Source: an uncultured Thermoguttaceae bacterium
Lineage (GTDB): Bacteria > Planctomycetota > Planctomycetia > Pirellulales > Thermoguttaceae
Assembly: GCA_937951625.1 (NCBI GenBank)
Contig: CALFBP010000040.1
Location: 1-50,696 of the forward strand
Reading direction: 5' to 3'
DNA length: 50,696 nt
Part shown: one piece after another, positions 4,997 through 16,613 of the stretch
Position numbering within the stretch: the stretch's first letter is position 1
Layout of the letters: each line of letters begins with the position of its first letter
Position numbers and translations under genes: made by a program
Notes under the pieces: model-generated
The model's input: only the letters and a program-made list of their open reading frames with translations
Database searches by the model: none
Told to the model about the DNA's origin: nothing

Positions 4997-6025
4997 ATGA
5001 GTGCGAAGAAATGGCTTGTTTGTCTCAGTCTCTTTGGGGTTTTAGGGCTGGTCGGGATTTGGGCGACGATGGTCGTGGCCGCCGATGATTTGCCCGTCGT
5101 CCCCCTCGGCCTGAAGAAACCCCCCATTCCCGACGACAACCCGATGACGCCGGAAAAGGTGGAACTGGGAAAACTGCTGTATTTCGATCCTCGGGTGAGC
5201 AAGGACGGGACGATCTCGTGTGCGACCTGTCATGATCCAAAGCACGGTTGGGCAGAAAATAAACCGACCAGCATCGGCATCAAGGGGCAAAAGGGTGGGC
5301 GCAACGCGCCCACGGTAATCAATGCGGCTTACGCGACGTCGCAGTTCTGGGATGGCCGGGCGGCCACGCTGGAGGAGCAGGCGGTTGGCCCGGTGGGCAA
5401 CCCCATCGAGATGGGCAGTTCCATGGCCGAAGCGATCGCGCGACTATCGAAGATTCCCGAATATCGCCGCCGATTCAAGCAAGTGTTTGGAACCGGCGTG
5501 ACGGAGGAGGGTTTCGCGAAAGCCATCGCGGCGTTCGAGCGGACGGTGCTGAGCGGCAATTCGCCCTACGATCGCTTTCAAGCGGGGGAAAAGGATGCCT
5601 TGACCGAAGCCCAAAAACGCGGTCTGAAGACGTTCGAGAAGGCCGGTTGCGCGAATTGCCACACGCCGCCGTTGTTCAGCAGTTACGAGTTCCACAACGC
5701 CGGCGTCGACGCCCACAAGCCCAACCCCGACGAGGGTCGCAAGGCGGTCACCAAGAAGGATGAGGATATGGGGGCCTTCCGCGTGCCTTCGCTTCGCGAT
5801 GTGGCCAGCACCGCGCCCTACTTTCACGACGGCAGTGCCGCCACGCTTGAAGACGCCGTGGCCTTGATGGCCGCCGGCGGCAAGGACAATCCCCATCGCT
5901 CCAGCGATTTCGACGTCGTGCGCGAGGCCAAACTGACGGAGCAAGACCGCAAGGACCTGGTCGAGTTCCTTAAGGCCCTCTCAGGCGACTACCCGATCAT
6001 CGAGCCGCCGACGCTGCCGGAATAG
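4997..6025 (+). CDS. Di-heme cytochrome c peroxidase (MauG/CcpA family)
   Basis: 342 residues. The ATG at 4997 is preceded by AAGGAGGT, a near-perfect ribosome binding site, which overrules longer upstream frames. A hydrophobic export signal covers about 6-29. Two c-type heme sites are present: CATCH at about 75-79 and CANCH at about 218-222. Other family hallmarks are YFDPRVSKDGTISCATCH and the late segment FRVPSLRDVASTAPYFHDGS. The enzyme reduces hydrogen peroxide in the periplasm with electrons from small c-type cytochromes; related members oxidise other substrates, so the exact reaction is not certain. Transcribed alone, between a divergent gene and mnmG downstream. Confidence 0.93.
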   Translation: MSAKKWLVCLSLFGVLGLVGIWATMVVAADDLPVVPLGLKKPPIPDDNPMTPEKVELGKLLYFDPRVSKDGTISCATCHDPKHGWAENKPTSIGIKGQKGGRNAPTVINAAYATSQFWDGRAATLEEQAVGPVGNPIEMGSSMAEAIARLSKIPEYRRRFKQVFGTGVTEEGFAKAIAAFERTVLSGNSPYDRFQAGEKDALTEAQKRGLKTFEKAGCANCHTPPLFSSYEFHNAGVDAHKPNPDEGRKAVTKKDEDMGAFRVPSLRDVASTAPYFHDGSAATLEDAVALMAAGGKDNPHRSSDFDVVREAKLTEQDRKDLVEFLKALSGDYPIIEPPTLPE

Positions 6026-13136: not shown

Positions 13137-14240
13137 TCAACGTTTTCGGGGAGCCGAATCGGGATTCGTGCTAGACCGGCCCGTGGTTTGCAAGGACTTG
13201 GCGGCCACTTGAGCGGAAACCGACACCTCCAGCGGGGTAGCGCCGGCCACATCGGTCTTGATGCGGATTTTACCGGACACTTTGTCCGGCCTGTCGCCCG
13301 CGTGAAACTCCACAGCCACCATGGCCCCGTAGTAAATGGAATCTCCGGAGCGATATTGGCTGGCGGCTTTGGGGATCGTGAATCGGAATCGCGGGTCGGG
13401 CCCCTCGACATCGAGGATGCGAAATGGTCTCTGGCCCCGAACCACGAGGTTCTTGCTGACCGTCTCGCCCGGCGGGACCACGTCGAATATCAACACGGCG
13501 GGATGAACGCTTAGCGAGGGCACGACCAAGCCTTCGACGGTCAGCGGGATTCGGGCGGTCTGCTGATTCGGATCGTTGGTCCGCAGGACCACCAGCTCCT
13601 TGAGGTAGCCTGGTGGCGAGTCGTCCTTGAGCGTGACAACCAGATCGTAAGTGACCTTGCCCACTTGAGTTCGCGGATCGCTGGACCGCTCGACCTCGGC
13701 CAGCGCGACCTCCAAATGGGAGGAGGAAGGCTCGGCGTCGAGTACTTTCCAGGTCGTGCGGCCGGCATACGACACCGTGACCCGCTTTTGTACGCTCTGC
13801 CCTTGGGGAACCGATCCAAACTGGACGGTTCCCGGCTGAAACACCACGTCGGGCCGGATGTAATAGCTTACGTGCAGTCGGAATTCCGCCCGGAAGGGCT
13901 GGTCAAAGACGACTCGGAGCGTCGATTCCTTTTGGCCGTAGAATCGCTGGGTATCGAGAGTGACGACGATGGCGCCGGTGTCGTAAGTCTTCAAGAGCCG
14001 CTTGGTCACGTGGACTTGGGCGCAGCCGCAGGAACTCTCGACCCGCTCGATATGCACGTCCTCGACATACGGGTTTTCCATCTCGAAGCGGTACTCGGCC
14101 ACGGCGCCTCGGGCCACGGTGCCGAAGTCGTAGGTCGTGGTTTTGAAGAGTCGCCTGGGCCAATCCGCGTCGGCCAGACCACCCGCGGAAGACGCGAAAC
14201 ACAGCGCGAATGCCAGGATAAGGTACCGTCCTCGTACCAC
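13137..14240 (-). CDS. Exported DUF1573-type protein with ASH-like beta-sandwich domains
   Basis: 367 residues from GTG 14240, selected because GGAGGAGG stands 7 nt upstream and a signal peptide starts at once (YLILAFALCFASSAGGLA). The first domain has the DUF1573 hallmark: TTTYDFGTVARGAVAEYRFEMEN followed by the SSCGCAQVHV cysteine pair. Two or three further beta-sandwich modules follow (VQFGSVPQGQSVQKRVTV; HPAVLIFDVVPPGETVSKNLVV), ending at a basic tail. Such proteins are periplasmic or surface proteins of unknown role. The gene starts 34 bases after the corrinoid protein stop, so it is probably in the same transcript, although a functional tie is not obvious. Confidence 0.82.
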   Translation of the reverse strand: MVRGRYLILAFALCFASSAGGLADADWPRRLFKTTTYDFGTVARGAVAEYRFEMENPYVEDVHIERVESSCGCAQVHVTKRLLKTYDTGAIVVTLDTQRFYGQKESTLRVVFDQPFRAEFRLHVSYYIRPDVVFQPGTVQFGSVPQGQSVQKRVTVSYAGRTTWKVLDAEPSSSHLEVALAEVERSSDPRTQVGKVTYDLVVTLKDDSPPGYLKELVVLRTNDPNQQTARIPLTVEGLVVPSLSVHPAVLIFDVVPPGETVSKNLVVRGQRPFRILDVEGPDPRFRFTIPKAASQYRSGDSIYYGAMVAVEFHAGDRPDKVSGKIRIKTDVAGATPLEVSVSAQVAAKSLQTTGRSSTNPDSAPRKR

Positions 14241-14274
14241 GGCAATTCCTCCTCCCTGAAACGCCGTCCGCATC

Positions 14275-14913
14275 TCAGTGGATGCCGGCTGCGCGGCAGG
14301 CGAACTGAAGTCCATCGACCGCCGTTTTGCCGTAAAAGTCGCAGCCGGTGCTTTCGGCCAATAAATCGCTGGCCGCGGCGCCGCCGACCATGATCGCGAT
14401 GGAATCGCGGAGGCCCGCGTCGCGGATCGCTTGCACCGTGTTGGAGACCGACTTGTAGCAGGTCGTCAACAGCAGGCTCATGCCCACCACCGCGGGTTTG
14501 TGCTGGCGGATCGCCTCGACGAATTTTTCCGGTGGCACGTCCACGCCGAGGTCGACGACGTCGAAGCCAGCGCCGCGGAGCATCATCACCACGATGTCCT
14601 TGCCGATGTCATGGACATCGTGGAGCACGGTGCCCATGACCGCCCTGGCCCGAGCCGCTCCCGCCGTCTGAGACGTCAAATGCGGCGCCAACAGGGCCAT
14701 CACGTTTTTCATGATCATTCCGCCGAACATGAGGTCGGGCAGGAAGCATTCCTCGCGGCTGAAGCGGTTGCCCAACTCGATCATTCCCCGATTGCACTCC
14801 GCGAGGATCTCGTTGGCCGACACACCGGCCGCCAGTTGCTCGCGGATGAGTGTCAGAGCTTGTTCCTCCTGGCAGTCGGCAATGGCCGAGGCCAAGGTGC
14901 TTTCTTGTGTCAT
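14275..14913 (-). CDS. Corrinoid (cobalamin-binding) methyltransferase protein, MtaC/MtbC type
   Basis: 212 residues, the usual length for a stand-alone methyl-carrying corrinoid protein. Residues 1-85 form the helical cap (EILAECNRGMIELGNRFSREECFLPDL is typical but split here by function: helix packing over the cofactor). The Rossmann-like B12 domain has DVHDIG at 99-104, whose His is the lower cobalt ligand, then SLLLT at about 146 and a GG pair at about 177. It should carry a methyl group between a UroD-type methyltransferase and an acceptor such as tetrahydrofolate or coenzyme M. The methyltransferase gene lies upstream on the same strand, separated by a 57-residue gene. Confidence 0.93.
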   Translation of the reverse strand: MTQESTLASAIADCQEEQALTLIREQLAAGVSANEILAECNRGMIELGNRFSREECFLPDLMFGGMIMKNVMALLAPHLTSQTAGAARARAVMGTVLHDVHDIGKDIVVMMLRGAGFDVVDLGVDVPPEKFVEAIRQHKPAVVGMSLLLTTCYKSVSNTVQAIRDAGLRDSIAIMVGGAAASDLLAESTGCDFYGKTAVDGLQFACRAAGIH

Positions 14914-15040: not shown

Positions 15041-15214
15041 TCAAAACGACAGAAGGATTTGCCAAATGTAGGTGTATCCCAACGCGTCGATTTCTTCCCA
15101 TTGACGCTTCACCAGTTCCTCATCGCCTTGGATCGGCGGAAATTCCTGCTTCTTCTCTTCCCAAGGGATGCAAGTTCCCGGCGGACGTTTCACTTCGCTT
15201 TTTTCCTCAGCCAT
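15041..15214 (-). CDS. Small 57-residue protein inside the methyltransferase-corrinoid gene run
   Basis: ATG at 15214 with AAGGAGA about 10 nt upstream; stop TGA at 15041-15043. The sequence is charged and not low in complexity: an acidic-basic start (MAEEKSEVKRPPG), one Cys in GTCIPWEEKKQEFPP, then GDEELVKRQWEEIDALGYTYIW and a hydrophobic end. Codon use is like its neighbours. It sits between the UroD-type methyltransferase (stop 187 bases upstream) and the corrinoid protein (start 128 bases downstream), all on one strand. I do not recognise a family. The position suggests a small partner or subunit of the methyl transfer system; a spurious frame is less likely given the ribosome binding site and balanced composition. 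Confidence 0.62.
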   Translation of the reverse strand: MAEEKSEVKRPPGTCIPWEEKKQEFPPIQGDEELVKRQWEEIDALGYTYIWQILLSF

Positions 15215-15401
15215 CGCGGTCGGTCTCCTTGGCTACGAAGGGGAATGTTGGATAAGGGAAGGGAGGCAAGAGGCAACTCTCGACTGTTCGAATTCCTTGG
15301 CAGCGCTGCGCTAAGCGTTGAACGTTTCGCCGCTACGCAACGCCCACTTTCTAAGCTTACCCAACTCCGTCTTCCATCATTATCTTCTCTCTCTCCCTCC
15401 C

Positions 15402-16613
15402 TCAATACACCCCGTATTCTCGCGTTGCCTCTGTCATGGCGCGAAGGTTCTCCACTTTGGTATCGTCTTGCATGATGGCGCTAGCGTCCATGATATAGCC
15501 GCCATCGCGGGCGACACCGTCGATCACTTTTTTGCAATAGGCGCGGACGTCTTCGGGCGTGCCGAAGGCCAGCAAATCGTTGGGGATCCCGCCGCTGATG
15601 CAGAACTTGTGCCCTACGGTCTTGTGGACCTCGAAAATGTCGCCCCGATCCACGTGGTAAATAATGCTCAGGTCCGGCAATTGGGCAATGTACTTGAGGT
15701 TGGGGTTCCATTCGCCCTCGGCGTAAAACAGGATCTGGTGCCCCTTGGACCAGATCGTCTCGATGATTTGCTTCAAGGTCGGCCAATAGAACCTTTCGAA
15801 CTGCGGCGGCGAGAGGAAGGGCACGCAGCCGCGGTGCATCCACAGGCCGATGGGGACATTTTTCGTGGGATCCGCGCCCGAGAGGGCCACGTGCGTCAGG
15901 TGCGGCATCAGCGCTTCGCAGGCCGCCAACACCTTTTTCGGCTGGCGATACATGTCCATGCAAAGGCCCTTATAGCCGCGGAGCTTATCAGCAATGATGT
16001 CGAAGGGCGCCTTGAGGATTCCGGATATCGCCGAGACGGTCCCCGACTCCTTCCGCAACAATTCCGCCTGGCGGCCGAAACCCATGAAATAGCCGAGCAT
16101 GGCCATTCCGCCCTTGAGAAACGACATGTTGTTGCGAAAGGTATTTGGTTGGCCCGGGGCCACCACGTCGGCCGAGACCCGTGGCAACCACACGTTGAAC
16201 AAATAGCCGGTCGGATCTTCGATCAACAAGTCATACTCGTCCTCCCGCATCCACGCCTGATCTTCCGGCGGTTCGAGGTATTGGAAGGCGGCATCGGGCG
16301 GAATTTCGATCCCGGGCACCGCGTAGTACTTCAGTCCAATCGCCTTCACCAGGGCCATCCAACCGTAGACCATGTTGCCGACGACGGCGTCCCAATCGAA
16401 ATCCGCCGCACACTTCCGCGCGGCCGCAAAGGCCTTCTCGTAGTCGTAGCTGACCTCCTGGCTGGTGTAACCGGCGTACTTGGCGGTGAACTCGGCCACG
16501 AACGGCCGAATCGGCACCATGTCCGGCTTTTCGTTCCGCATCGCCGTCACATAGCGTTTCAGACGCTCGGCGTACCGTTTCTCCATCGCACTGGTGGTCG
16601 TCTCTTGAGGCAT
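15402..16613 (-). CDS. UroD-family corrinoid-dependent methyltransferase
   Basis: 403 residues from ATG 16613. The protein belongs to the uroporphyrinogen decarboxylase superfamily but is not HemE: it lacks the HemE start motif RQAGRYLPEY, and a true hemE is present at 34674. Supporting stretches are IGLWMHRGCVPFLSPPQFERFYWPTL, ILFYAEGEWNPNLKYIAQLP and CISGGIPNDLLAFGTPEDV, typical of methylcobamide methyltransferase relatives with a zinc or substrate pocket on a TIM barrel. It would move a methyl group from an unknown methylated donor to the corrinoid protein encoded downstream, or from that protein to an acceptor. The donor (methoxylated aromatic, methylamine, methanol or other) cannot be read from sequence. 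Confidence 0.85.
   Translation of the reverse strand: MPQETTTSAMEKRYAERLKRYVTAMRNEKPDMVPIRPFVAEFTAKYAGYTSQEVSYDYEKAFAAARKCAADFDWDAVVGNMVYGWMALVKAIGLKYYAVPGIEIPPDAAFQYLEPPEDQAWMREDEYDLLIEDPTGYLFNVWLPRVSADVVAPGQPNTFRNNMSFLKGGMAMLGYFMGFGRQAELLRKESGTVSAISGILKAPFDIIADKLRGYKGLCMDMYRQPKKVLAACEALMPHLTHVALSGADPTKNVPIGLWMHRGCVPFLSPPQFERFYWPTLKQIIETIWSKGHQILFYAEGEWNPNLKYIAQLPDLSIIYHVDRGDIFEVHKTVGHKFCISGGIPNDLLAFGTPEDVRAYCKKVIDGVARDGGYIMDASAIMQDDTKVENLRAMTEATREYGVY

Follow-up and report, generated by a model that had tools for sequence, protein, structure and literature searches.

The minus-strand frame S57, which encodes 57 residues between a UroD-type methyltransferase gene (hereafter, MT) and a corrinoid protein gene on a contig from an uncultured Thermoguttaceae bacterium, probably specifies a small obligate subunit, or a detached C-terminal domain, of a CdmB-like corrinoid methyltransferase (probability about 0.85, from sequence comparison). 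The window, that is, the whole stretch of DNA analysed, spans 50,696 nucleotides, and the features considered here are listed in Table 1. UroD-type corrinoid methyltransferases take the methyl group of a substrate and attach it to the cobalt of their corrinoid protein. One line of evidence for the subunit reading is that 78 of the 80 loci recovered by a search with S57 alone have an MT directly upstream of S57 or fused to it.

Table 1 Features of the window around S57.
Feature	Position	Strand	Remarks
DUF1573-type open frame, 3' of the corrinoid gene	13137..14315	-	54% identical to L091:2754-3800
Corrinoid (B12-binding) protein, 212 aa	14275..14913	-	PF02310 and PF02607; TIGR02370-like, below cut-off
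S57, 57 aa, ATG start	15041..15214	-	Putative small subunit or detached C-terminal domain of MT
AAGGAG, ribosome-binding site of S57	15225..15230	-	10 nt upstream of the S57 ATG, read from the sequence
UroD-type corrinoid methyltransferase (MT), MTI-like, 403 aa, partner of S57	15402..16613	-	PF01208, E 6e-28

Conservation and protein-level constraint of S57

In the window, 187 bases separate the MT gene from S57, and the corrinoid gene lies on the other side of S57. The predicted protein has a single Cys, in a GTCIPW context, and Trp at residues 18, 39, and 51. The first-pass annotation had proposed that this frame is an unnoticed small gene serving the MT system and preceded by a good ribosome binding site, and the proposal is supported: the AAGGAG motif is in place before the ATG, 18 copies of S57 (E ≤ 5e-13) were detected across 17 of 40 related genomes, with homologues at the same position, and the balance of synonymous and non-synonymous change indicates constraint on the protein.

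A codon-wise comparison of the window S57 with 55 free-standing relatives gave a median pS of 0.79 and a median pN of 0.21, and pN was below pS in all 55 cases. Across all 1540 pairs the values were 0.77 and 0.20 in the S57 frame, and in the shifted frames the order was reversed (pS 0.27 and 0.22; pN 0.34 and 0.36). An SD-like 4-mer preceded the ATG in 48 of the 55 free-standing copies, compared with 17% of random places. These comparisons confirm S57 as a real gene evolving under protein-level selection. Its shortness is what might favour a spurious frame open by chance, a reading that the conservation and the substitution pattern rule out; the relatives, the co-occurrence with MT described below, the pN/pS pattern, and the SD-like 4-mers are all contrary to it, and its probability is negligible.

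Linkage and co-occurrence of S57 and MT

When the genome contig collection was scanned with S57 as the only query, 93 related stretches were recovered, of which 80 were kept as loci. MT was located just upstream of S57 on the same strand in 56 of these loci (gap of -1 to 230 bases, with the nearest ATG taken as the start), and S57 was fused in frame to the C-terminus of MT in another 22. No MT was seen beside S57 in the other two, L069 and L090. In L069, a run of N (an assembly gap) lies just upstream of S57 and is followed by a typical MT tail, and in L090 the flank has no MT and an RNase-Y-like gene lies upstream.

In L090, whose S57 match lies at 5001, short repeats (ELRVES units in translation) were observed on the upstream side of this match, at the place where MT would be expected. 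These repeats, which follow the RNase-Y-like gene, are perhaps a recombination or assembly joint.

Of the 40 relatives, 17 have S57, and a close MT of full or nearly full length was found in exactly these genomes. An eighteenth relative (G012) shows only residues 2-147 of an MT, a fragment that reaches the locus end and so allows no judgement on S57. Of 397 genomes in the class, S57 and MT were found in the same 16 (hypergeometric P 7e-29, a descriptive value and not a test, as the samples partly overlap and related genomes do not count as independent), and in 392 genomes of the phylum S57 and a close MT were found in 13; in both searches, at most 16 S57 and 4 MT candidates were scored per genome. 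Two genomes of the phylum sample (G439 and G602) have an MT that is 41% identical over residues 164-403, with no S57 found; this is the nearest MT seen without S57 and can serve as an outgroup. One further S57 match in this sample (G743) was weak (E 5e-4), contained an internal stop, and was taken as chance.

A P0003-like corrinoid gene was detected in the fetched flanks (up to 5 kb, some shorter) of 15 of the 80 loci, and in none of the other 65. The corrinoid protein was rejected on this count as the tight partner of S57, and the linkage data point to the UroD-type MT instead. The proposed tie of S57 to the MT/corrinoid pair was thus upheld for the MT (78 of 80 loci) and not for the corrinoid protein.

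In one genome (G008), the S57 after MT is broken (L176, G008:C53), with an end that could still be matched (E 3e-6, small search set), and a second, intact S57 occupies a different contig (L140, G008:C190) among unrelated genes. This genome is a bin of 310 contigs that is 87% complete, and the second contig may be misbinned. If the bin is right, the arrangement suggests that S57 acts in trans and was kept after the neighbouring copy broke; the persistence of S57 when unlinked concerns this one genome.

Fusion, fission, and phylogenetic spread

A quick tree was built from 75 MTs (20 fused and 55 split), in which 27 of 72 forks were open (weak); L069, L089, L090, L122, L127, and L133 from the 80 loci were left out. 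The fused or split label requires 6 changes on this tree, with 3 of them forced by well-supported branches, compared with 17.7 changes on average for shuffled labels. On this tree, the changes show that fusion or fission of MT and S57 occurred more than once.

The 80 loci belonged to Planctomycetota (43), Hydrogenedentota (8), Armatimonadota (4), Omnitrophota (3), Acidobacteriota (3), Atribacterota (2), Verrucomicrobiota (2), and Poribacteria, Bathyarchaeota, and Brockarchaeota (1 each), that is, to Planctomycetota and nine other named phyla, two of them archaeal, and 12 loci had no phylum assigned; most loci are from metagenome bins, so that individual phylum placements may be in error. Both archaeal copies grouped together in the quick MT tree (SH-aLRT 99). 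They are on contigs of 99 and 138 kb, and each of the two genomes encodes a reactivase as well as a small corrinoid protein.

Conserved residues and family status of S57

Residues were counted over 107 distinct S57 ends from 120 loci. The terminal residue was Phe in 104 of these sequences and another residue in three, and the Cys was kept in 100. Val replaces the Cys in the other seven (L039, L040, and L042-L046), where the Gly and the Pro-Trp are kept. Gly13, Cys15, Trp39, and Asp43 were invariant in the 18-row and 56-row alignments, which exclude the seven Val sequences. The Cys that the first-pass annotation had pointed out is thus present and conserved, though not invariant.

No Pfam family matched S57 above its cut-off, the only match being Apc15p (E 0.067; 14.4 of 25 bits), and no NCBIfam family matched at E ≤ 1. 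A sequence search of the PDB returned no convincing relative; two P2X7 sequences, with E values of 1 or more, were taken as chance. Foldseek with the model of S57 alone gave no match at E ≤ 10, which is a weak test for a helical model of 57 residues, and a search of the viral collection, for close relatives of S57 only, found none. In the open literature, covered partly as titles and the starts of abstracts, we found no report of such a small subunit of MT. By these searches, S57 is a new small-protein family and a variant within a known kind of enzyme.

Predicted structure of a natural MT-S57 fusion

A natural fusion of 482 aa (L076) was modelled with AlphaFold2 using an alignment of 95 rows, and the model had a mean pLDDT of 91.2 and a pTM of 0.89. 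It comprises a UroD-type barrel to residue 400 and a linker (residues 401-426) with pLDDT under 50, followed by the S57 part with pLDDT of 83 over residues 431-440 and 95-97 over 441-480, in which a short helix (443-447) and a long helix (457-480) were predicted. A pTM of 0.89 would be hard to reach with 55 of the 482 residues floating, and we therefore infer, by this indirect argument, that S57 is docked in the predicted fusion. The model of S57 alone reached a pLDDT of 82.7 with a pTM of 0.57, a weak comparison because small chains alone tend toward low pTM. The top covarying MT-S57 pairs (107 rows, Neff 62) were on variable columns and thus uninformative.

The MT and its nearest known systems

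The best solved relative of the window MT by sequence was CdmB (9rui), with E values of 4e-39 for the single sequence and 1e-52 for the profile. CdmB, the chloromethane methyltransferase (MTI) of Acetobacterium dehalogenans, belongs to the UroD superfamily, as does MT. It aligned with the MT family profile in two stretches (positions 2-72 and 90-398 of 398), and in this alignment CdmB and MT end at the same place, CdmB having no S57 tail. PMC13222342, from which we take the terms MTI and MTII, lists MtvB, OdmB, VdmB, and MtoB as kin of CdmB and names CdmB, CdmC, CdmA, and a separate activating enzyme as parts of the chloromethane system. According to the same paper, CdmB is active in vitro with its own corrinoid protein and the activating enzyme, its activity is unchanged by zinc or EDTA, and its structure has no visible metal.

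The fused model shares its barrel fold with human UroD (1r3w, Z 27.0 over model residues 5-400) and with a methyltransferase of M. mazei (4ay7, Z 26.1 over model residues 9-397). All structural matches listed for this model end at or before residue 401, and none reach S57, an absence that proves nothing. Membership of MT in the MtaA/CmuA or HemE families was rejected, the scores being far below the NCBIfam cut-offs for MtaA/CmuA (TIGR01463, 23.3 of 235.4 bits; NF040654, 26.5 of 400) and HemE (TIGR01464, 15.6 of 302.95 bits). By fold and homology, MT falls within the UroD-superfamily corrinoid methyltransferases of the CdmB type, with methyl transfer as its predicted reaction.

The corrinoid protein and the rest of the methyl-transfer system

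The adjacent corrinoid protein is likely the partner of the window MT, judging from its position. The DUF1573-type frame overlaps the corrinoid gene, so its true start is probably later than the start of the frame. Such DUF1573-type genes are present in 9 of the 80 loci, and PF07610 was detected in the copy at L058.

The first-pass annotation had noted the lack of a second methyltransferase and of a corrinoid-reactivating protein, which is correct locally, though reactivases and candidate second methyltransferases are present in the rest of the genome. The genome of the window encodes three RACo-type reactivases (PF14574), all outside the window, and has five pterin-binding matches, candidates for the methyltransferase to tetrahydrofolate (MTII), none in the window, among them one on contig C4 (beside CODH/ACS) and one on contig C10 (beside an MttB-like gene). 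The CODH/ACS cluster (L159, G000:C4:38000-56000) includes acetyl-CoA synthase and the gamma and delta subunits over their cut-offs, together with an activator resembling AcsV and a methyltransferase resembling AcsE, both scoring below their cut-offs. Given this cluster, the carbonyl branch of the Wood-Ljungdahl pathway may operate in the organism. A second corrinoid protein is encoded elsewhere in the genome (L162). The methyl-transfer system may be scattered rather than incomplete.

In the same genome, the MttB-like gene and a pterin-binding methyltransferase gene were observed close together on opposite strands (L163:4907-7511). The two genes might belong to another methyl-transfer system, which might also supply MTII.

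Among 24 other genomes with S57, a small corrinoid protein was found in 23 (in G790, the match lies in a 1231-aa frame only) and a reactivase in 23 (all but G792), and in several of these genomes the small corrinoid protein is on the contig of the reactivase, within a few kb. The reactivase was present in 16 of the 17 relatives with S57 vs 7 of the 23 without. We rejected RACo as a marker specific to S57 and regard it as a lineage trait, because 7 of the 8 genomes of the window's family without S57 also have a reactivase.

Genomic neighbourhood and substrate leads

Neighbouring genes, called as longest open frames only, were compared between S57 loci and matched controls. GFO/IDH/MocA-type genes occur in 27 of the 80 loci, 16 of them from Phycisphaerae, and among 75 first downstream genes scanned 16 were of this type; related genomes therefore contribute much to these counts. 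Heparinase-like genes made up 8 of 65 first upstream genes; these 65 remained from 73 after removal of seven short frames (~90-120 aa) and of the one adjoining the L069 assembly gap. In the matched comparison, based on 20 genomes, GFO_IDH_MocA and AP_endonuc_2 each accounted for 5 of 100 neighbours. Neither was among the 25 families listed for the 109 control genes, which gives at most one each, and the control also contained fucosidases, sulfatases, and glycosidases. The control consisted of 40 stretches, with 2 dropped as too short, and 109 of 144 extracted genes were used (≤3 per stretch). The excess of carbohydrate genes near MT was modest relative to the matched control and serves as a substrate lead only.

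In the Brockarchaeota bin (L126:1512-7957), the fused MT-S57 gene is flanked by genes for a GH2-type glycosidase, a GFO/IDH/MocA oxidoreductase, and an isomerase-like protein.

GFO/IDH/MocA, sugar-isomerase-like, heparinase-like, or GH2 genes occur near MT in loci from Phycisphaerae, Hydrogenedentota, and the Brockarchaeota bin. A far-reaching and rather doubtful extension of the subunit reading is that MT and S57 constitute a distinct class of corrinoid methyltransferases, made of two parts, in bacteria and archaea, in which S57 would shape the gate for substrate or corrinoid and the substrates would be methyl groups of carbohydrates. If this is true, these organisms would perform B12-dependent anaerobic demethylation of methylated sugars.

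Possible roles of S57

As a subunit, S57 would be produced from its own gene in most loci and would elsewhere form a C-terminal domain after a predicted disordered linker. Its long C-terminal helix, together with the conserved G-x-C-x-P-W residues, would bind MT lastingly and complete its fold, and our guess is that S57 shapes the face where the substrate and the corrinoid protein meet. Judging from gene content, the methyl group would pass to the corrinoid protein, then to a pterin-binding methyltransferase encoded elsewhere, and as methyl-THF to CODH/ACS. Dependence on a corrinoid in the 65 loci without a P0003-like gene would likewise follow from genome content. The activity of the relative CdmB in vitro without an S57 tail counts against the subunit reading, as does L090, where S57 has no MT in its flank.

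The first-pass annotation had named both a subunit and a chaperone, between which sequence does not settle, though the fusions favour a subunit. A chaperone or assembly factor for the folding or loading of MT, standing outside the working enzyme, would suit a protein that is small, encoded beside MT, and kept even where unlinked; we consider it improbable given the fusion of S57 to the enzyme in 22 of the 80 loci and a conservation up to the terminal Phe that fits a built-in surface better. Even less probable is a redox or metal-binding switch, for example one in which the Cys supplies the active site in trans with a thiol or a ligand for zinc. The presence of this residue in nearly all distinct sequences, and its invariance in the 18-row and 56-row alignments, would agree with such a switch, but because Val stands there in seven relatives that keep the Gly and the Pro-Trp, the Cys is not indispensable, and its candidacy as an indispensable metal ligand or thiol is weakened. 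The indifference of the relative CdmB to zinc and EDTA and its metal-free structure, as described in PMC13222342, also speak against a metal switch.

An adaptor that lets MT use a shared corrinoid protein encoded elsewhere is compatible with a subunit, and we see it as a minority possibility, likelier than a chaperone. It would account for the many flanks without a P0003-like gene in genomes that nearly all encode a small corrinoid protein, in several cases close to the reactivase, but S57 is also kept where the corrinoid gene adjoins, as in the window.

Implications

If S57 is a subunit or detached domain of MT, an enzyme of this branch expressed from the annotated gene alone may be incomplete. 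The fused homologues, the possible unlinked case, and the outgroup without S57 offer handles on its role. S57 would mark a branch of B12-linked methyl metabolism that comes mostly from metagenome bins and whose hosts include Planctomycetota, Hydrogenedentota, Omnitrophota, Armatimonadota, Acidobacteriota, and archaea.
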